Of a DNA stretch of 13,429 bases, positions 1 through 12,155 are shown one piece after another. Made by a program: the position numbers and the translations under genes. The DNA comes from Candidatus Desantisiibacteriota bacterium (GTDB lineage: Bacteria; JACRDZ01), in contig JACQWU010000212.1 of assembly GCA_016209155.1 (NCBI GenBank), forward strand, positions 3,359-16,787. Direction: 5' to 3'. The notes beneath the pieces were generated by a model. The model ran no database searches, was not told the origin of the DNA, and saw only the letters and a program-made list of their open reading frames with translations. Numbering within the stretch: the stretch's first letter is position 1; each line of letters begins with the position of its first letter.

Positions 1-1
1 T

Positions 2-871
2 TATGCAGATAATTTTCCTATTCGTAGAACAAAAAAAGTATTAAATATTACAAGCCCGACATATCCAATTACCTCTATTGTAAGTGATATAGCTGTTGAT
101 CAAAACACGAATGTGCTTTATGTCTCTAATTATAAATTCAATAAAATCCAGGCCTATGATACCGCCGGAGGATTATTATTTGAATTTGGAGGAGAGGATG
201 AAGACTCTACTTTAAAATATATTATGGGTTTATGGGTGGATTCCTCAGGAAAAATATTTGTAGTATCTCAAGGTAATAACAAAGTATGTGTTTTTAATCC
301 ACAGGGCAATTTGTTATTAAAATTTCCGACTGAACATAATGCATATGATGTGATAACTAATTCCTTTGGTGATATATTGATAAGTATTAATGATACAGGC
401 AAAAGTCGAATTCTGATATATGATAATGAAGGTAAATATAAATTTGCAATCAGAAAAGTAACAACCGGTGACGGGAAAAAATTTGATTTAGGCAGTCCTA
501 CATGGCTTGGCATAACAACTGATGATAATCTGTTTGTTGTAGATAAAATACCTTGTAAAGTTTATATATTTGACGCAAAAGGAAGGCTTACAAAGTCTTT
601 TGGCGGAAGAGGCGATACAGCCGGAAGTTTTTTTTCAATGGGCGGTATTTCTGTGGATAATAAAAATAGGGTTTATGTTGCAGACTATACCCGCGGGATT
701 GTACAAATTTTTACTAAAGATGGTGAATTTATTGCCGCTGTATCAGATGAAAAAGGGAATAGAACAGCTTTAAGCATGACAAAAGGTATTGCCTTAGACT
801 CAAACAATAGATTATATTGTCTTGAACCGGTTGATGCCAGAATATCAGTATTTTCATTCTTAGATAAATAG
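2..871 (+). CDS. NHL-repeat beta-propeller protein (5' end outside window)
   Basis: The frame is open from base 2 with no stop, so the true start lies upstream; the GTG at 113 is internal to a repeat. About 289 residues are visible and contain roughly six NHL-type blades. Each has the pattern of a hydrophobic strand ending in G-I-x-V-D, then N/G-x-x-Y/F-V-x-D, then x-V-x-I-F-x-x-x-G (for example GISVDNKNRVYVADY and GIALDSNNRLYCLEP). NHL propellers are known as protein- or ligand-binding scaffolds, often extracytoplasmic in bacteria. Whether this one has a signal peptide cannot be seen. The gene lies 115 bases upstream of a 14-heme cytochrome on the same strand, so a joint role in surface or periplasmic electron transfer is inferred. 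No catalytic motif is evident. The NHL family call is fairly sure; the function is not. Confidence 0.8.
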   Translation, partial: YADNFPIRRTKKVLNITSPTYPITSIVSDIAVDQNTNVLYVSNYKFNKIQAYDTAGGLLFEFGGEDEDSTLKYIMGLWVDSSGKIFVVSQGNNKVCVFNPQGNLLLKFPTEHNAYDVITNSFGDILISINDTGKSRILIYDNEGKYKFAIRKVTTGDGKKFDLGSPTWLGITTDDNLFVVDKIPCKVYIFDAKGRLTKSFGGRGDTAGSFFSMGGISVDNKNRVYVADYTRGIVQIFTKDGEFIAAVSDEKGNRTALSMTKGIALDSNNRLYCLEPVDARISVFSFLDK

Positions 872-970: not shown

Positions 971-978
971 GGGAGGAG
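971..978 (+). promoter_or_regulatory. Shine-Dalgarno site that fixes the cytochrome start
   Basis: GGGAGGAG sits about 8 bases before the ATG at 987. An in-frame GTG at 966 would begin upstream of this site and has no ribosome binding site of its own, so the ATG at 987 is the better start. Confidence 0.75.
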
Positions 979-986
979 AATGTAAT

Positions 987-3635
987 ATGGTAAAAAGGGA
1001 GTTACATAAAAAAACAAACAGGATTTTAATAATAGTAATAATAATCGGCGGTTTTTTTATTGGAATAAACTATTTAAAAGCAACAATAATAAATTCCGGA
1101 CATGATGTTATATCTGTAATGCGTGAAAGAGGCGGTGAACCGGAAGAAAATCAGGGAGTATGTTCTTTTTGTCACATACCGCATTTTGCTCAAGGCGCGA
1201 GATTATGGCCGGTTGTGCTTACCGACCTTGTAATAACAAAGGTGGGACAAGTTGGCGCAATGTGCAGCACCTGTCATACTACACCGCCAACCTCCACAGC
1301 TCCCGTAATGGATGAAATAATAACGGATGCAGGGAATAGAACTCATCCCCTTTTAGATACTTATACAGTTCCTGATACAAATAAAAAATATTCAGGATGG
1401 CCATATACTGATGGACAATTGATGGAGTGCAGTTCCTGTCATAATCCGCATGAACAGCATGAACCCTTTACTGCTTTATTTTCCAGAGCAAATTCAGTGG
1501 CGAGATTAGGAAATTTTACCACTGTCCCCATGTATGAAACCGGAAGACCTTTAAACCCCGAACCGCGCAGAATAGTAAATTTAGATACAATGTATGTAAA
1601 ACCAAATTTACCAGCATTATTTTGCAGTTATTGTCATCAGTACCGGGCATATGATAGTTCAGGCCGAAAAACGCATATTCTATTTAAACATGGCAATTTT
1701 AGACGAAAAACAGGAAATGGAGTATATTTTGAGACTACTCCCCGCCGTATTTTTAATGAATATGAAACTACAGCCGTATTTGTGTATGATAGTATGAGTC
1801 CTAATCCGGGTGGAGGACACTTATCGTATTTTGAAACAGGTACGATTATATGTAATACATGTCACAAACCTCATGGAGCCGCACCCGGCGGGAAATTGTT
1901 AGTATATGATAATAGACATAAAACATCATATAATACTCCATATGATTCTATGAGTGCTTTATGTGAAGCCTGTCATGATACAAATCCAAATCCAACATTA
2001 CATACCAATCCATCATTACATGATTCGACAGATATTTATTATTCACATCCGTTTGACAGCGCAACTTTAGATCTTGTAGATTCAAGAGGGAAAACTATTT
2101 ATAATAATATTCCAACCAAACCGTTATATAATGAAAACTGGCCGACTATTGATACAACCAGTCGCAGAGGCATTGTCTGTATGACATGTCATAAGCCGCA
2201 TCTGGCTCAGACAGATACTGAAATTCTGAGAGAAAGTAAGAAAGGTGACAACAGAATTTGTGATGATTGCCATTCTTCATATCCTAAATCACCATCCGGT
2301 GTAACATTTCCGGGTCCAGGACCTGCCGCAGACACTACAAATCCGCTTGCTTATCAGGGTTATGGTACAGAATCGCATCCTATTCATATAACATTGAATA
2401 CTTCTGATTATGACTCAATAATATGGCCTAATAATGATTGGTTAAGATTATTTGATACATCCAGAGGGAAAGTATATAATAGTACTCGAGCGTTAAGGAG
2501 AACAGGGCTAATGTCCTGTGAAACATGTCATAATGTTCATAGAGCATATAGTAAACCCATTCTTGAATATCCGGGATCTGACTATTCTGAAATGTGTGTC
2601 GGATGCCATACGGATTTTAAAAAACTTACCAGAGGGAAAATCTGGGTAGAAGGAAAATATTTAGATAAAACAATAGGAGGTGTAAATTATACTGATCCAT
2701 TTAATAGTACAAGAAATAACTATATTATAGCTGAAGGTACAGGCGGATATTATACTAATAATTATATTGGTGCTATAGCAGGTAATGATACAACATTTTC
2801 AGCTAATCCTTCAAGATATATAAGTGAATATACCGAGATAGCTTCTTCCCGTCTTGGTACGCATCCATCCGGAATGAAAGTAGATGATTTATTAAATGAT
2901 TCAACACGATGCAGTCCGGCAGGATCGGCTGACTATGCGTTTAGAGGTATATTCCCGGGATCTAATCAGAAAGCAAGCTGGGGAACAAAATCAAACGGTA
3001 CCAGAGACACTACAATTATTTGCCAGTCATGTCATACCCCGCATGGTGCAGCATCCGGTCTCGTAGAACAAAATAGAGGGGCTATGAATACAGACCCTAC
3101 GCCAAATAGCGCGCTGCTTCTTGATCATAATGATTCTTCAAGTTTGTGCGTAGCCTGTCATAAAGGAAAAATAAAAACTGGTACGACTGAAGTAATGCCG
3201 ATTGTTGCACATCCAATGAATATGGTTATTTGCAGCGGTATTGATTATTATGATACATTCTGGTATGTGAGAAACATAGAAAAACAAATTCCTTTAAATG
3301 TATTTAAACCGCGTGAAGGAGACAGTGAACCGCTTAAATGTTATTGTTTGAGAGATGGATTGTCAATGCCTGCTAATTTCCCTGGAAACAGGCTTGTATG
3401 TGATAGTTGTCATGCTCCGCATGCTGCGGAAACCTCATCAGGAAGCAGAATACTTGATTCTAAATATGTAATAGATTCAAGTAATTTTGATTCTACCTAT
3501 AATTTGGATTTAAATACTAAATTTGGAGGGAAGCGTTATTATAAAGATAAATATGATCCATCCAGGTTTTGTCATCAGTGTCATTCCGTATCTAAAAGCG
3601 AATGGAATTATTGTACAACGATACCAAGCAGATAA
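987..3635 (+). CDS. Membrane-anchored or exported 14-heme c-type cytochrome, doubled-CXXCH type
   Basis: This predicted 882-residue protein has a basic N-terminus followed by one hydrophobic stretch (residues 13-27), which is either a signal peptide or an uncleaved anchor. Fourteen CXXCH heme-binding motifs start at Cys 59, 93, 148, 213, 289, 326, 398, 425, 511, 537, 679, 721, 805 and 862. They alternate strictly: every odd one is CXXCHxPH (CXXCHxVH at 511) and every even one is plain CXXCH, giving seven doubled-CXXCH modules. His-Pro pairs at His 120, 354, 464, 626 and 742, plus Thr-His at 230, fall in the gaps between modules and may be distal heme ligands. Five extra cysteines (642, 749, 785, 787, 876) lie only in the last third. 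Known members of this class move electrons in the periplasm or at the cell surface; donor and acceptor are not visible here. The upstream NHL gene is a likely partner. No strong promoter is evident in the 115-base gap, so co-transcription is possible. Confidence 0.93.
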   Translation: MVKRELHKKTNRILIIVIIIGGFFIGINYLKATIINSGHDVISVMRERGGEPEENQGVCSFCHIPHFAQGARLWPVVLTDLVITKVGQVGAMCSTCHTTPPTSTAPVMDEIITDAGNRTHPLLDTYTVPDTNKKYSGWPYTDGQLMECSSCHNPHEQHEPFTALFSRANSVARLGNFTTVPMYETGRPLNPEPRRIVNLDTMYVKPNLPALFCSYCHQYRAYDSSGRKTHILFKHGNFRRKTGNGVYFETTPRRIFNEYETTAVFVYDSMSPNPGGGHLSYFETGTIICNTCHKPHGAAPGGKLLVYDNRHKTSYNTPYDSMSALCEACHDTNPNPTLHTNPSLHDSTDIYYSHPFDSATLDLVDSRGKTIYNNIPTKPLYNENWPTIDTTSRRGIVCMTCHKPHLAQTDTEILRESKKGDNRICDDCHSSYPKSPSGVTFPGPGPAADTTNPLAYQGYGTESHPIHITLNTSDYDSIIWPNNDWLRLFDTSRGKVYNSTRALRRTGLMSCETCHNVHRAYSKPILEYPGSDYSEMCVGCHTDFKKLTRGKIWVEGKYLDKTIGGVNYTDPFNSTRNNYIIAEGTGGYYTNNYIGAIAGNDTTFSANPSRYISEYTEIASSRLGTHPSGMKVDDLLNDSTRCSPAGSADYAFRGIFPGSNQKASWGTKSNGTRDTTIICQSCHTPHGAASGLVEQNRGAMNTDPTPNSALLLDHNDSSSLCVACHKGKIKTGTTEVMPIVAHPMNMVICSGIDYYDTFWYVRNIEKQIPLNVFKPREGDSEPLKCYCLRDGLSMPANFPGNRLVCDSCHAPHAAETSSGSRILDSKYVIDSSNFDSTYNLDLNTKFGGKRYYKDKYDPSRFCHQCHSVSKSEWNYCTTIPSR

Positions 3636-3636
3636 T

Positions 3637-6018
3637 TTAAGATGATTGCTTAAGACTTTTGCTTTCCAGTGCTATTTTAAATACATCATCAATATTTTCT
3701 ACAAAGAAATATTCAATCTGATTACGAATTTTTACGGGAATTTCTTCTATATCATTTTTATTTTTTTCCGGTAAAATAACTTTTTTAATTCCGGCACGAA
3801 TTGCAGCCAGAACTTTTTCCTTTATTCCTCCGACAGGCAGTACCTTACCTCTCAATGTAATTTCTCCTGTCATGGCAATATCAGAACGGATAGGACGATT
3901 AGTCAGTAAAGACAGGAGAGATACAGCTAAAGTAATTCCTGCTGAAGGACCGTCTTTTGGAATTGCTCCGGCCGGGACATGAATATGAATATCCATATTC
4001 CCGAAAAAATTTTCTTTGATATTATATTTTTTGGCTCTTCCTCTTATAAGACTTAAAGCGGTTTGAGCAGATTCCTTCATTACGTCACCAAGCTGTCCGG
4101 TCAGAGTTAATGATTTATTGCCATACATAGAAGTAGATTCAATAAAAAGAATATCTCCGCCATAAGGTGTCCATGCCATACCTGTAGCCACACCGGGTTC
4201 ATTTGTACGTTCTGCGATTTCAGAGAAAAATTTAGGATTACCCAGATATTCATGGACTTTTTCTTTGCTTATTACATATTTTTTTTGCTTCCCGGTTATA
4301 AGTACTTTTGTAACTTTGCGGCACAGTGTTGCAATTTCTCTTTCAAGATTTCTCAGCCCGGCTTCTTTTGTATAATGCTCAATAATTTCCTGAAGAGTAT
4401 CCGTAGGTATTTCAATATCACTATTTGTTATTCCATGTTCCTTTAGCTGTCTGTCAATAATATGTTTTTTAGCTATTTGTATCTTTTCTTCAAGAATATA
4501 TCCCGGAAGACGCAGAACTTCCATTCTGTCCTGCAAAGCAGGAGGGATAGTATCAAGTATATTTGCGGTTGTAATAAACATTACCTGTGAAAGGTTAAAA
4601 GGTAAAGCCAGGTAATGATCTGTAAACGCAGAATTCTGTTCAGGGTCAAGAACTTCCAGGAGTGCGGAAGCAGGATCTCCGCGAAAATCAGCTCCTATTT
4701 TATCAATTTCATCAATCATGAATACAGGATTGATTGAATTTGCTTTTTGTATTCCCTGTATAATCTTCCCCGGTAGAGCACCCACATAAGTGCGTCTGTG
4801 ACCTCTTATTTCAGCTTCATCCTTAACTCCACCAAGTGAAATACGTACAAATTTTCTGCCCAATGCCCGTGCTATGGATCTTCCAAGTGAAGTTTTTCCT
4901 ACACCGGGAGGTCCTGCAAAACAAAGAATAGGCCCTTTCATATCATTCTTTTTTTTACGTACAGCCAGATATTCTAAAATTCGTTCTTTTATTTTTTCAA
5001 GATCATAATGGTCTTCATCAAGGATTTTAGATGCCTGGGTTATATCAAGATTATCCTCAGTCTGTTTAGCCCAGGGCAGACTGCACAACCAGTCAAGGTA
5101 GGTGCGGGAAACAGTATATTCTGCGGCACCTATCGGCATTTTCATTAGACGTTCAAGTTCTTTATGCGCCTCTTTTTCAATTTCAACGGGCATTTTTGAT
5201 TCAACTATTTTATTTGCTATTTCTTTAGCTTCAATTTTGCGTTCATCATCTTCATCCCCAAGCTCTTTTTGTATGGCTTTCATTTGTTCGCGTAATAAAA
5301 AATTTTTCTGGTTTTTATCCATTTCCTGCTGGACCTGTTTTTGTATTTTAGATCCCAGTTCCAGCACCTCAATTTCCTTATTTAGCAGGACCATAACTTT
5401 TTCGAGACGGAGTTTAACCGGTAAAGTTTCCAGAATATCCTGTTTTTCAGATACACTTAAATTCAGGTTTGCAGCAACAAGGTCTGATAAGAGACTGGGA
5501 CTATTAATATTCATTACAACAATTTGTAATTCATCCGGCAGATAGGGCTGCATACTGATAACTTTTTGAAATTGTGAAGATACACTGCGGGTAAGAGCAT
5601 CAAATTCCATACCTTTTTCTATACTATCATCCAGAGGTTCAACATTAGCTATAAGATAGGGATCTTCCTGAATGTACTCATTAATTTTAATTCTGCGAAT
5701 TCCATGCACTATAATACGGATAGTATTATCAGGAAGGCGCAGCATCCTGAAAATTTTAGCGGCCACACCGTACTGATATAGATCTTTAGGTTCAGGTTCT
5801 TCAATATTACTGTTTATTTGTGCAACTATTCCGAATATTTTTTCTTTTACAATTATTTCATCAATTAATTTGGTTGATTTTCCTTCGGTGATTAAAATAG
5901 GGATACTGATAAAAGGGAAAAGAACTGTCCCTTTTATAGTTAAAACCGGGATACTGCCCGGAATTTTAGTTTTTTCAAGCTCACTTTTATCCCAGGGATT
6001 AGTTGAAGTTACACTCAT
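3637..6018 (-). CDS. lon: ATP-dependent protease Lon
   Basis: This cytoplasmic AAA+ serine protease degrades misfolded and regulatory proteins. The 793-residue length is normal for bacterial LonA. The N-terminal substrate-binding (LAN) domain spans about residues 20-215, followed by a charged coiled-coil linker (about 215-300). The AAA+ module has Walker A GPPGVGKT at 369-376, Walker B VFMIDEID at 432-439, and a sensor and arginine region at about 483-561. The C-terminal protease domain has PKDGPSAG with catalytic Ser692 and GIKEK with Lys735, the same 43-residue separation as the E. coli Ser679/Lys722 dyad. All key residues are present. The start ATG lies 10 bases after the hsp20 stop, so the two genes form an operon. 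The stop codon is one base from that of the convergent cytochrome gene. Confidence 0.98.
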   Translation of the reverse strand: MSVTSTNPWDKSELEKTKIPGSIPVLTIKGTVLFPFISIPILITEGKSTKLIDEIIVKEKIFGIVAQINSNIEEPEPKDLYQYGVAAKIFRMLRLPDNTIRIIVHGIRRIKINEYIQEDPYLIANVEPLDDSIEKGMEFDALTRSVSSQFQKVISMQPYLPDELQIVVMNINSPSLLSDLVAANLNLSVSEKQDILETLPVKLRLEKVMVLLNKEIEVLELGSKIQKQVQQEMDKNQKNFLLREQMKAIQKELGDEDDERKIEAKEIANKIVESKMPVEIEKEAHKELERLMKMPIGAAEYTVSRTYLDWLCSLPWAKQTEDNLDITQASKILDEDHYDLEKIKERILEYLAVRKKKNDMKGPILCFAGPPGVGKTSLGRSIARALGRKFVRISLGGVKDEAEIRGHRRTYVGALPGKIIQGIQKANSINPVFMIDEIDKIGADFRGDPASALLEVLDPEQNSAFTDHYLALPFNLSQVMFITTANILDTIPPALQDRMEVLRLPGYILEEKIQIAKKHIIDRQLKEHGITNSDIEIPTDTLQEIIEHYTKEAGLRNLEREIATLCRKVTKVLITGKQKKYVISKEKVHEYLGNPKFFSEIAERTNEPGVATGMAWTPYGGDILFIESTSMYGNKSLTLTGQLGDVMKESAQTALSLIRGRAKKYNIKENFFGNMDIHIHVPAGAIPKDGPSAGITLAVSLLSLLTNRPIRSDIAMTGEITLRGKVLPVGGIKEKVLAAIRAGIKKVILPEKNKNDIEEIPVKIRNQIEYFFVENIDDVFKIALESKSLKQSS

Positions 6019-6023
6019 ATTTA

Positions 6024-6030
6024 TTTTCCT
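6024..6030 (-). promoter_or_regulatory. lon Shine-Dalgarno overlapping the hsp20 stop codon
   Basis: On the minus strand the hsp20 stop TAG runs directly into GAAAA, so the AGGAAAA binding site for lon shares two bases with that stop and sits 5 bases before the lon ATG. The arrangement suggests translational coupling of hsp20 and lon. Confidence 0.6.
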
Positions 6031-6436
6031 ATTTCATTAGTTCAATTTCAATGAATCCATCATTATATTCAGCAGATATATCTTTTATTTCAAAATTTTC
6101 CGGAATAGTTATCATTTTTTCGAAATAACCGTAATTGATTTCCATGCGTTTATAATTAATTTTTTTATCTTTAGAATTGTCAAAGCGTTCACCTGTAATT
6201 ATAAGAGTATGTCCAATTAATTTAATTTCCAGATTGTCAAGTTTTACACCGGCTATTTCCATCTTAATAATTATTTTTCCTGAAGTTTCATATACATCAG
6301 TAGGCGGCCGCCAGATATTTTCTGTTATCATCGCCAGAGGACTATTGAACACAGAAAATTGTTTTGAAATCCGTTCCAGTTCCTTAGTGATTATATCAAG
6401 GTCTTTCAAAATTTTAATTTTTATCAAATACCCCAT
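6029..6436 (-). CDS. Hsp20 / alpha-crystallin small heat shock protein, short C-terminus
   Basis: This 135-residue ATP-independent holdase chaperone of the Hsp20 family has a short helical N-terminal arm (about 1-43). The alpha-crystallin domain follows (about 46-135), shown by WRPPTDVYET, IKMEIAGVKLDNLEIKL, LIITGER, YGYFEKMITIPENF and the end strand DGFIEIEL. The chain stops right after that last strand (ELMK), so the usual C-terminal tail with an I-x-I/V motif, which drives oligomer assembly in the family, is absent. The gene is the promoter-proximal member of an operon with lon, pairing a holdase with a protease for damaged protein. The start is supported by AGGAAA about 9 bases upstream of the ATG. 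The family call is firm; whether the short tail is natural or secondary truncation is open. Confidence 0.9.
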   Translation of the reverse strand: MGYLIKIKILKDLDIITKELERISKQFSVFNSPLAMITENIWRPPTDVYETSGKIIIKMEIAGVKLDNLEIKLIGHTLIITGERFDNSKDKKINYKRMEINYGYFEKMITIPENFEIKDISAEYNDGFIEIELMK

Positions 6437-8173: not shown

Positions 8174-11100
8174 ATGCCCAGGCGACAGGATTTAAAGAAA
8201 ATACTTATAATAGGCTCAGGCCCTATTGTTATCGGACAGGCGTGTGAATTTGATTATTCTGGGACACAGGCATGTAAAGCTTTAAAAGAAGAAGGATATG
8301 AAATAATTCTTATCAATAGTAATCCGGCAACAATAATGACGGATCCTGAAATGGCAAACCGGACATATATTGAACCAATCACAAAAGATATCATAGAAAA
8401 AATTATCGAACGTGAACGACCTGATGCAATACTACCGACTATCGGCGGGCAGACAGCTTTGAATGTCACAGTTGAACTTGCTGATGCGGGTGTACTGGAA
8501 AAATATAATGTGGAAATGATAGGCGCAAAAATCGGAGCAATAAAAAAAGCTGAAGACCGTAAACTATTCAAAAAAGCAATGGAAAATATCGGAGTAGATT
8601 TACCGGAAAGCGATTTTGCTTATAATATAGAAGATGCTTATTCGATAGTAAAAAAAATAGGTTATCCGGCTATTATACGTCCGTCTTTTACTCTTGGTGG
8701 AACAGGCGGAGGAATAGCATATAATATTCACGAGCTTGAAGAAATTGTTTCACGGGGAATCGAGTATTCACCGATTGGGGAAGTCCTTGTTGAAGAATCC
8801 GTTATAGGCTGGAAAGAATTTGAACTTGAAGTAATGAGAGACCTTAACGATAATGTTGTAATAATTTGTTCAATCGAGAATTTTGATCCTATGGGTGTTC
8901 ATACGGGTGACAGCATTACAGTGGCTCCAGCTCAGACTCTTACCGATAAAGAATATCAAATAATGAGAGATGCGGCAATAAAAATTATACGCGAAATAGG
9001 AGTTGATACCGGAGGATCAAACATACAATTTGCCTTAAATCCACGTGATGGACGCATGGTGATAATAGAGATGAATCCGCGCGTATCACGAAGTTCCGCT
9101 CTTGCTTCAAAAGCCACAGGATTTCCAATCGCCAAAATTGCCGCAAAACTTGCTGTCGGATATACACTTAATGAGATACCAAATGATATTACAAGAGAGA
9201 CCCTCGCTTCATTTGAGCCTACAATTGATTATTGTGTTGTAAAAATTCCGCGCTGGGCATTTGAAAAATTTCCTGAAGCGGATGATATACTCGGAACACA
9301 AATGAAATCTGTGGGCGAAACCATGGCAATCGGCAGAACCTTTAAAGAAGCGCTGCAAAAAGGATTACGCTCCCTGGAAATAGGGAGACACGGTCTTGGC
9401 GCAGACGGTAAAGATAAAGTCACATCAAGTAATCTGCCGCCGATAGACAAAATAGAGCAAAAATTAAAAGTTCCAAACTGGGAAAGAATTTTTTATATCC
9501 GGTATGCCATGAAATATTATAATATGAAAATAGAAGAAATATATAAACTTACCTGGATTGATCCATGGTTTTTATATAATATTATGGAAATTATTGAAGT
9601 TGAAAATCTTCTGGAGAAGTCCTCTGCTAAAACTATATCGGAAGACCTTTTAAGAAAAGCCAAAGAATATGGTTTCTCTGATAATCAACTTGCATATTTA
9701 CTTCGTACACAATCTAAAGAAATTAATTTTTTAAGAGTCTCACATAACATTAAACCTGTTTTTAAAACCGTTGACACATGTGCCGCGGAATTTGAAGCAT
9801 ATACTCCGTATTATTATTCCACTTATGATAAAGAAAATGAAGCATTTAAAAGTGATAAGAAAAAAATAATAATTTTAGGGAGCGGCCCAAACCGGATAGG
9901 GCAGGGGATAGAATTTGATTACTGTTGTGTTCATGCCTGTTTTGCTTTGGCAGAGGATGGATACGAAACCATAATGATAAACAGTAATCCTGAAACAGTA
10001 AGCACGGATTATGATACCTCAACACGTCTTTATTTCGAACCTCTGACTTTTGAAGATGTAATGAATATCATTGAACATGAAGAACCTGACGGAGTAATAG
10101 TCCAGTTTGGCGGCCAGACACCTTTGAAATTAGCTATTCCTCTTGAACGTGCAGGGGTTAATATTATTGGTACATCGCCGGACAGCATTGATCTTGCAGA
10201 AGACAGAGGAAGATTCAGCCAAATACTTGATGAATTAAAAATCCCTCAGCCTCCAAACGGTGTTGCATTTTCTTTTGACGAAGCAAGAAGCGAAGCGAAA
10301 AAGCTTGAGTACCCTATACTTGTAAGACCTTCTTATGTTTTAGGCGGCAGGGCAATGAAAATAGTTTATGATGAAGATGTATTAAAAGATTATATGCTTA
10401 CAAAAGCGGAAATTTCACCTGAGCATCCTATTCTGATAGACAAATTTTTGGAAGAAGCGACAGAAGTTGATGTTGACGCAGTTTGTGACGGTACGGATGT
10501 TGTTATATGCGGGATAATGGAACATATTGAAGAGGCAGGAATTCATTCAGGTGACAGTGCCTGTGTAATGCCTCCTTTCAGTCTTGCTCCAGAAATAATT
10601 AAAACAATTCGTGAATATACCAATAAGCTTGCATATGCTATTAAAGTAAAAGGGCTGATGAACATCCAGTATGCAGTAAAAAAAGATATTGTTTATGTAC
10701 TTGAAGTTAATCCCAGAGCATCACGAACAGTTCCGTTTGTAAGCAAAACAACCGGTATCCCGTGGGCAAAAATAGCCTCCAGAGTTATGTGCGGCAAAAC
10801 ATTAAAAGAAATGCGGATACCAAAAGAAGTGGAATTACCTTATATCTCCGTAAAAGAAGTTGTATTCCCGTTTATTAAATTTCCCGGGGTTGACACATTA
10901 CTCGGTCCTGAGATGAAATCGACAGGTGAAGTAATGGGCATAGATTCTTCTTTTGGCAGAAGCTTTGCAAAATCTCAGATAAGCGCGGGACAGATTTTAC
11001 CTAAAAAAGGAACGGTATTTATAAGTGTTAATGACAGAGATAAACATTCAATCATTTCTCTTGCAAAAAAACTAACCGGTCTGGGATTTGAAATAATAGC

Positions 11101-11419
11101 CACAAAAGGAACAGCGCAAGTGCTTAATGAACATGGCATAAAAGTTATTCCGGTATTAAAAGTAGTGGAAGGCAGACCCAACATTGTTGATAAAATAAAA
11201 AACGGAGAAGTTCATCTTATAATCAATACCCCTTTCGGGAAAAAATCTCATCACGATTCATATTCAATCCGCAGAAACGCGCTTATCCATTCCATTCCGA
11301 TAATAACCACAATCTCAGGCGCATCAGCCGCTATAAGCGGAATAGAATCTCTGATAAATGAAAAAATTACCGTTAAATCAATACAGGAGTTTCATAAGGA
11401 AATAAAAATAATATTATAA
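8174..11419 (+). CDS. carB: Carbamoyl-phosphate synthase, large subunit
   Basis: With the glutaminase subunit CarA it makes carbamoyl phosphate from bicarbonate, glutamine-derived ammonia and two ATP, feeding pyrimidine and arginine synthesis in the cytoplasm. The 1081-residue length is typical. Two homologous ATP-grasp halves are visible. The carboxyphosphate half (about 1-400) starts with [20 protein letters not shown]. The carbamoyl-phosphate half starts near residue 562 with [19 protein letters not shown], after the oligomerisation region. Metal and nucleotide motifs [17 protein letters not shown] and [17 protein letters not shown] are intact. The C-terminal MGS-like regulatory domain (about 943-1081) keeps ATKGTA at 976-981 and the INTPFG and SIRRNAL segments, so UMP or ornithine control is plausible. 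AGGAG lies 7 bases before the ATG. carA is not adjacent or elsewhere in the window. No frameshift or missing motif was noticed. Confidence 0.98.
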
Positions 11420-11420
11420 G

Positions 11421-11536
11421 TTCAGGTGAATAGACTGAAGGTGGAAGGCTGTTAGTACAGATTTTTGTAAATTTTTTGTAGGGCAAGGCTTTAGCCTTGC
11501 TTATTATTGCTAACATACTTCAACCTTCAGCCTGAA
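11421..11536. repeat. Nested inverted-repeat element between carB and ubiX
   Basis: Imperfect outer arms (11421-11455 and 11510-11536) pair through TTCAGG/CCTGAA, CTGAAGGT/ACCTTCAG, GAAG/CTTC and TGTTAG/CTAACA, interrupted by an 8-base insertion in the left arm and small mismatches. Inside lies a second perfect hairpin, GCAAGGCT (11483-11490) and AGCCTTGC (11493-11500), preceded by a near direct repeat of ATTTTTGTA (11461 and 11471). The element begins two bases after the carB stop and has no coding capacity. It resembles a small non-autonomous or palindromic repeat insertion and may also act in carB 3'-end formation. Confidence 0.65.
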
Positions 11537-11561
11537 TATCTAAATAGAAAGGTAATCGCTT

Positions 11562-12155
11562 ATGTATAATAATAAACCCATCGGTTTTGCAATAACCGGT
11601 GCAAGCGGTATAATTTACGGATTACGCACAATAGAAGAAATTTTAAAATCCGGATATGATATTTACCTTACAGTTTCAGACACCGGCAAAATTGTGCTTA
11701 AGCAGGAATTAAATATTGATATAACCGATAATCCTTCAACATTTTTTAAAAATTATTTTAAAAGCAATAATATTTCTTATTATTCACCCGATGATTTTTT
11801 TTCCCCACTTGCCAGCGGCTCATCACATATTGAAGCAATGCTTATTATCCCGTGCAGTATGAAGACAGTCGCCGCCATTGCATCCGGAAACACTCAAAAT
11901 TTAATCGAACGCGCAAGCGATGTGTCTTTAAAAGAAGGCCGTAAACTGATTTTAGTCCCGCGTGAAACTCCTTTAAACCAAACCCATCTTGCCAATCTTC
12001 TAAAACTCGCTCAGATGGGTGTACATATAGTCCCTGCAATGCCCGGATTTTATAACCATCCACAGAAAATAGAAGATCTTGTAAATTTTATAGTTGCAAG
12101 AATTCTAAATCTCCTTAAAATTGAACATAATCTTGTTATCCCCTGGGGCAAATAA
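11562..12155 (+). CDS. ubiX: UbiX-family flavin prenyltransferase
   Basis: The family transfers a dimethylallyl group to FMN, making prenylated FMN, the cofactor of UbiD-type (de)carboxylases used in quinone synthesis or aromatic breakdown. The 197-residue length is normal. Visible motifs are the flavin-binding ITGASG near the start (GASG 13-16), SDTG at 39-42, PCSMKTVAAIASG at 97-109, LVPRETPL at 131-138 and VPAMPGFY at 157-164, so FMN and substrate sites look intact. GAAAGG lies about 9 bases before the ATG. The gene follows carB on the same strand but is separated by the nested repeat; no UbiD gene is in the window. A Pad1-like or phosphopantothenoylcysteine decarboxylase-like flavoprotein is the alternative, but the PRETPL motif favours UbiX. 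Confidence 0.93.
   Translation: MYNNKPIGFAITGASGIIYGLRTIEEILKSGYDIYLTVSDTGKIVLKQELNIDITDNPSTFFKNYFKSNNISYYSPDDFFSPLASGSSHIEAMLIIPCSMKTVAAIASGNTQNLIERASDVSLKEGRKLILVPRETPLNQTHLANLLKLAQMGVHIVPAMPGFYNHPQKIEDLVNFIVARILNLLKIEHNLVIPWGK

Follow-up and report, generated by a model that had tools for sequence, protein, structure and literature searches.

The gene at positions 987 to 3635 (+ strand) of the 13,429-nucleotide stretch of DNA analysed here (the window) encodes a protein, P0001, with 14 CXXCH motifs, and it raises the question of what so many hemes on one chain are for and whether their number matters. The answer that we hold to be likely is that P0001 is a Sec-secreted bis-His wire of fixed length, with its 14 hemes carried on modules of the OmcE/OmcS kind, and that it would serve in extracellular electron transfer together with a beta-propeller partner. 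The window comes from contig C78; the host genome measures 3.08 Mb, is 79% complete and has 73 doubled-CXXCH matches.

The frame runs from an ATG at 987 to a stop codon at 3633-3635 and gives 882 residues; frame, domain match, motif scan and homologues were all used to call it a 14-heme doubled-CXXCH cytochrome. An in-frame GTG 21 nt before the ATG is an alternative start, but 987 is the better one because a Shine-Dalgarno-like GGAGGAG (972..978, + strand) stands approximately 8 nt before it. The first-pass annotation had placed a frame with 14 CXXCH motifs at 987-3635; its coordinates were correct and all the sites are present (residues 59, 93, 148, 213, 289, 326, 398, 425, 511, 537, 679, 721, 805 and 862). 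Its strict alternation was reproduced as well, with xPH after the odd-numbered motifs (xVH at 511) and absent after the even-numbered ones, as was a within-pair spacing of 26 to 65 residues. Residue shuffles of P0001 (5000) fell far below this, with a mean of 0.05 CXXCH and a maximum of 2, and given that seven of the 14 motifs are of the CXXCHx(P/V)H type, strict alternation has a chance of 1/3432. The doubled-CXXCH model proposed as a check, PF09699 (Paired_CXXCH_1), matched P0001 in seven stretches at 92.3 bits against a cut-off of 20.6 (1.4e-26). Five Cys lie beyond the CXXCH motifs, at 642, 749, 785, 787 and 876 (window 2910, 3231, 3339-3347 and 3612), and include one CYC pair.

Six His residues in the gaps between motif pairs had also been pointed out (120, 230, 354, 464, 626 and 742). 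All are there, but a seventh, H39, in TIINSGHDVIS ahead of module 1, had been overlooked. Once H39 is counted, P0001 divides into seven equal modules, each consisting of a gap His, CXXCHx(P/V)H and CXXCH. Module 1 (1101..1277, + strand, as are the others) has gap His39, CXXCH 59 (heme 1, with H66 of the xPH) and CXXCH 93 (heme 2). Motif scan and alignment placed module 2 at 1344..1637 (gap His120, CXXCH 148 with H155, CXXCH 213), module 3 at 1674..1976 (gap His230, CXXCH 289 with H296, CXXCH 326), module 4 at 2046..2273 (gap His354, CXXCH 398 with H405, CXXCH 425) and module 5 at 2376..2609 (gap His464, CXXCH 511 with H518 of the xVH, CXXCH 537). Module 6 (2862..3161) has gap His626, within a conserved RLG(S/T)H, CXXCH 679 with H686, and CXXCH 721; module 7 (3210..3584), again from motif scan and alignment, has gap His742, CXXCH 805 with H812, and CXXCH 862. 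The seven gap His and the seven x(P/V)H His together provide 14 distal His candidates for 14 hemes.

Homologues were collected with profiles. The host genome has three further long copies, on contigs C328, C128 and C117 (the last stops at the contig end), and three other genomes of the window's phylum have one to four copies each. A profile made from 12 copies from the window's phylum (A1) found copies in G373's phylum, where 6 of the 12 genomes have a match, as well as in G312 and G288. The same profile widened with the newly found copies (A3) gave matches in 7 of 295 Nitrospirota genomes (so labelled after the record of L011, which is a Thermodesulfovibrionales MAG) and additional copies in G288 and G312. 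Searches with P0001 itself returned only two remote relatives from a genome-contig set and one remote match from viral contigs. Exactly 14 CXXCH motifs were present in all 26 complete collinear homologues, which come from four phyla (the window's, G373's, Nitrospirota and G288's) and are 23-33% identical to P0001. G312's phylum has only contig-cut copies, which agree with the 14-heme layout as far as they reach. We conclude that the fixed 14-heme family spans at least four phyla, and probably five.

Other doubled-CXXCH proteins from the same searches have 4 to 28 CXXCH motifs. Proteins with 11, 26 and 28 also score with the family profile and were classed as other doubled-CXXCH proteins by score and motif layout. 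Paired_CXXCH_1 (PF09699 / TIGR01905) is a domain without a fixed copy number, whereas the 14-heme family always has seven pairs; a variable repeat array was rejected as a description of P0001, the heme count being constant. A search of the open-access literature for 'tetradecaheme' found nothing.

The constancy extends to the heme-binding residues. Across all 26 complete homologues the 28 Cys and the 14 proximal His show no substitution, and the distal His, counted in strict alignment columns, are present in 22 to 26 of them, except for H686 (10/26) and H742 (14/26). The count for H742 is largely an alignment shift, because an equivalent THP is present, while H686 is restricted to the window's phylum; H66 is absent in 4 of the 26. 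Another residue, H278 in GGGHL before heme 5 (window 1818-1820), is shared by 17 of the 26 homologues; it may act as an additional ligand, one that perhaps substitutes for H686 in other phyla. H278 raises the plausible ligands to 15, one more than the hemes, and H686 is phylum-restricted, so the exact ligand-to-heme assignment is unsure. P0001 itself keeps all 14 family distal His and has no CXXCK site. It is a genuine electron-transfer protein that looks functional and is under unusual constraint.

The N-terminus had been read as an anchor, a claim that comparison with the homologues does not support. The ends of cleavable signal peptides in homologues (SFAG-I, VKA-S) line up with the LKA-TIINSGHD that closes the hydrophobic stretch of P0001 (residues 13-30), and a conserved candidate heme-ligand His follows only 7 residues past the putative end. 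By hydropathy and the aligned signal ends, residues 1-32 (987..1082, + strand) are a probable Sec signal peptide cleaved after LKA. The N-terminus therefore looks like a Sec signal peptide rather than an anchor, and a membrane anchor was rejected on the signal-peptide pattern of the homologues.

The first-pass annotation further proposed that the protein grew by repeat duplication, and the duplication part of this was borne out. The seven modules are alike beyond their motif residues (z = 9.2 against within-module shuffles). Growth was not seen here, since module k of one homologue best matches module k of the others, with module 5 of P0001 as the exception, and the count is always 14 hemes. 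Across phyla, the k-to-k match is still the highest for most positions, modules 5 and 6 being unclear. The k-to-k matching and the constant heme count together point to an old duplication and a fixed number, and the duplication of modules most likely predates the spread of the family across phyla. The four copies of the host genome form one clade (99/97), within which P0001 sits on a long terminal branch (1.62) at only approximately 30% identity to its paralogues. On this tree, the gene itself is duplicated more recently than its modules.

Relationships to proteins of solved structure were examined with A3 against the PDB. The best match was OmcE (7tfs, 6.7e-21), whose entire chain aligned to modules 1-2, followed by 9yuq (3.6e-17), labelled only 'putative multiheme cytochrome c', in the same region, and OmcS (6ef8, 2.1e-15) on modules 6-7. 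Weaker matches were obtained to 6r2q (5.9e-6), which we take to be MtrA (its table label is a different name), and to NrfB (1.7e-5), with low-level matches to NrfA-type chains. The control consisted of 500 shuffles in which Cys, His and His-Pro were held in place and all else was permuted. OmcE scored 75.5 bits with the family profile, against 28.5 ± 6.5 for its shuffles (maximum 50.6), 9yuq 62.8 bits against 29.9 (maximum 53.3), and OmcS residues 7-148 38.2 bits against 16.8 (maximum 33.4). OmcS residues 233-406 were not significant, since 15 of the 500 shuffles reached the score. P0001 alone gave a weak signal with OmcE (18.7 bits, shuffles at most 16.9) and did not beat the shuffles with 9yuq; the relationship to OmcE and OmcS is thus a property of the family.

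The likeness to OmcE, a tetraheme extracellular nanowire protein of Geobacter sulfurreducens, covers a signal peptide, an SxHD(L/V)-type start and the succession CXXCHxPH, CXXCH, HP, CXXCHxxH, CXXCH. OmcE has two modules against seven in P0001, and it forms a polymer, which for P0001 is a possibility. The hexaheme nanowire OmcS (6ef8, 6nef) has alternating doubled-CXXCH modules, as in the family, but three rather than seven of them, and the aligned part of OmcS is without the SxHD start. The decahemes MtrA (6r2q) and DmsE are doubled-CXXCH chains like P0001 and match it in part; they differ from it in having 10 hemes and a porin partner, and the score is far weaker than for OmcE and OmcS. The DmsE family model gave 44.8 bits on P0001, under its cut-off of 192.2, and no enzyme family matched P0001 above cut-off. 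By homology, the P0001 family is a variant within the doubled-CXXCH, OmcE/OmcS-like cytochromes.

Directly upstream, the 3' part of a gene for an NHL-type six-bladed beta-propeller protein occupies positions 1..871 (+ strand; Pfam NHL 5.5e-7, DUF5128 4e-12). The gene starts upstream of the window, with a probable TTG start and a Shine-Dalgarno-like GGAGG at about L009:3235, and its 5' end is broken by a 13-N scaffold gap (L009:3346-3358) just ahead of window base 1. Propeller homologues adjoin most other 14-heme copies, in the window's phylum, G373's phylum, Nitrospirota and G288/G312. Those lacking an adjacent propeller of their own are C328 and the tandem copies C49a/b, which lie behind C49c. 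Pairing of a cytochrome with an NHL propeller is itself not new. Secreted multiheme cytochromes of Desulfovibrio ferrophilus IS5 (DFE_0448-0465) lie beside the NHL or six-bladed propeller genes DFE_0451 and DFE_0463 (PMC8322314; PMC9769857), a resemblance to the window in gene adjacency that was compared by gene arrangement only, and multiheme cytochromes adjoin NHL propellers in Dethiobacter.

The other genomes of the phylum, and C128 of the host, have a larger cluster comprising a 14-heme/propeller pair, a 15-heme cytochrome, a TPR protein and further cytochromes. The 15-heme cytochrome belongs to the main cluster in each of the phylum's four genomes (L047:15046-16566, L042:10254-11927, L043:6191-7864 and L044:7126-8817) and is followed by the TPR-type protein where the contig permits. 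The window copy stands alone, outside this main cluster (C128), between an opposite-strand thioredoxin/TPR-like gene and lon. The genes around it are unremarkable: Lon protease and Hsp20 (- strand), and CarB and a UbiX-like flavoprotein (+ strand), at window 3637-6436 and 8174-12155. PADLOC returned no match, and a defence function was rejected on this result. A scan for promoter-like sequences gave 22 hits against 14.6 ± 4.2 in shuffles and was uninformative.

These observations suggest how the protein may work. Each module would give two heme sites and two distal His, so that all 14 hemes could be bis-His coordinated, low-spin electron carriers with no catalytic site, as the conserved ligand set suggests. 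Built from OmcE/OmcS-kind modules, the hemes are most likely closely packed in single file. The rise per heme of the solved filaments, 34 Å per 4 hemes in OmcE and 47 Å per 6 in OmcS (PMC12954529), would put the length of the wire at roughly 110-120 Å. P0001 would work beyond the cytoplasmic membrane, with the cell surface as the most likely place, and deliver electrons to an extracellular partner or take them from it. It would be made together with the propeller protein encoded upstream, and the observed gene association suggests that the propeller probably docks, assembles or caps it. The heme wire of the first-pass annotation is accordingly upheld in part: homology to OmcE and OmcS and the conserved ligand set speak for it, while heme spacing falls outside this support, the AlphaFold2 model from the single sequence having a mean pLDDT of 31 and no usable structure.

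Polymerisation into a nanowire, with subunits that exchange a heme ligand in the manner of OmcE and OmcS, is possible. P0001 would then be the subunit of an extracellular filament, in which a His of one subunit, with H39 or H66 as candidates, completes a heme close to the C-terminal end of its neighbour. OmcE and OmcS, which are among the best relatives of solved structure, are polymers, both of which borrow a His from the adjacent subunit (PMC9473688; PMC7096707; PMC12954529), and the opening SxHD...CHxPH segment of OmcE is conserved in the family. A closed monomer could equally be made from modules of this type, however, H66 is absent in 4 of the 26 homologues, and a single chain holds a candidate ligand for each of its hemes, so the sequence demands no neighbouring subunit; we regard polymerisation as a tentative prospect. 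A monomer could also be an MtrA-like conduit through the outer membrane or periplasm, sitting inside a porin or bound to the propeller protein. At about 110 Å the chain would have sufficient length, the propeller gene adjoins, and MtrA and NrfB are among the weaker profile matches. We consider this conduit unlikely, as the MtrA score is far under those of OmcE and OmcS, the window copy has no porin gene beside it, and MtrB/PioB was not matched in the host genome (79% complete).

A catalytic role is much less probable still. Low-level NrfA-type matches would fit a multiheme reductase of nitrite, hydroxylamine or metal instead of a wire, although they are expected for many multiheme proteins; the lack of CXXCK, the apparent distal His for every heme and enzyme families all below cut-off make a reductase very improbable. 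The long terminal branch (1.62), the low identity to paralogues and the position among housekeeping genes, away from the main cytochrome cluster (C128), could be signs of a decaying duplicate. Against decay, the frame is intact, the 28 Cys, 14 proximal His and 14 family distal His are all kept, the ribosome-binding site is good and the propeller partner is retained, and we give this reading hardly any credence.

A multiheme cytochrome as such is no surprise; what surprises in the secreted 14-heme wire that we favour is that its heme number is frozen and that its family bridges OmcE and OmcS in sequence. Constancy of 14 hemes at 23-33% identity in at least four phyla, with a propeller, points to a precise requirement of length or ligand pairing and to a conserved two-protein electron-transfer device. 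Nanowire subunits carry 4 hemes in OmcE, 6 in OmcS and 8 in OmcZ. A more ambitious proposal, to which we attach little weight, is that the family constitutes an undescribed nanowire class with a 14-heme subunit, an OmcE-like head, an OmcS-like tail and a dedicated beta-propeller for assembly, in at least four phyla. If true, its subunit would be larger than OmcE, OmcS and OmcZ, and the class would connect two filament families that have been described as without recognisable sequence similarity. OmcE and OmcS are reported to share a common heme geometry without such similarity, and the case for a common ancestor has so far rested on that geometry (PMC9473688). With a match to OmcE at the start of its profile and one to OmcS towards the end, the family offers a sequence bridge for testing whether the two do share an ancestor.

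Two kinds of unusual protein were observed alongside the family. Giant doubled-CXXCH proteins are encoded at L048:5682-9275 (host genome, C141) and L021:211-3288 (G013), where the sites number 26 and 28. On C26 of G003 (L049:4260-7196), the first six hemes (modules 1-3) are followed by ankyrin-like repeats, recognised by eye, in an apparent fusion that an NHL propeller gene adjoins.
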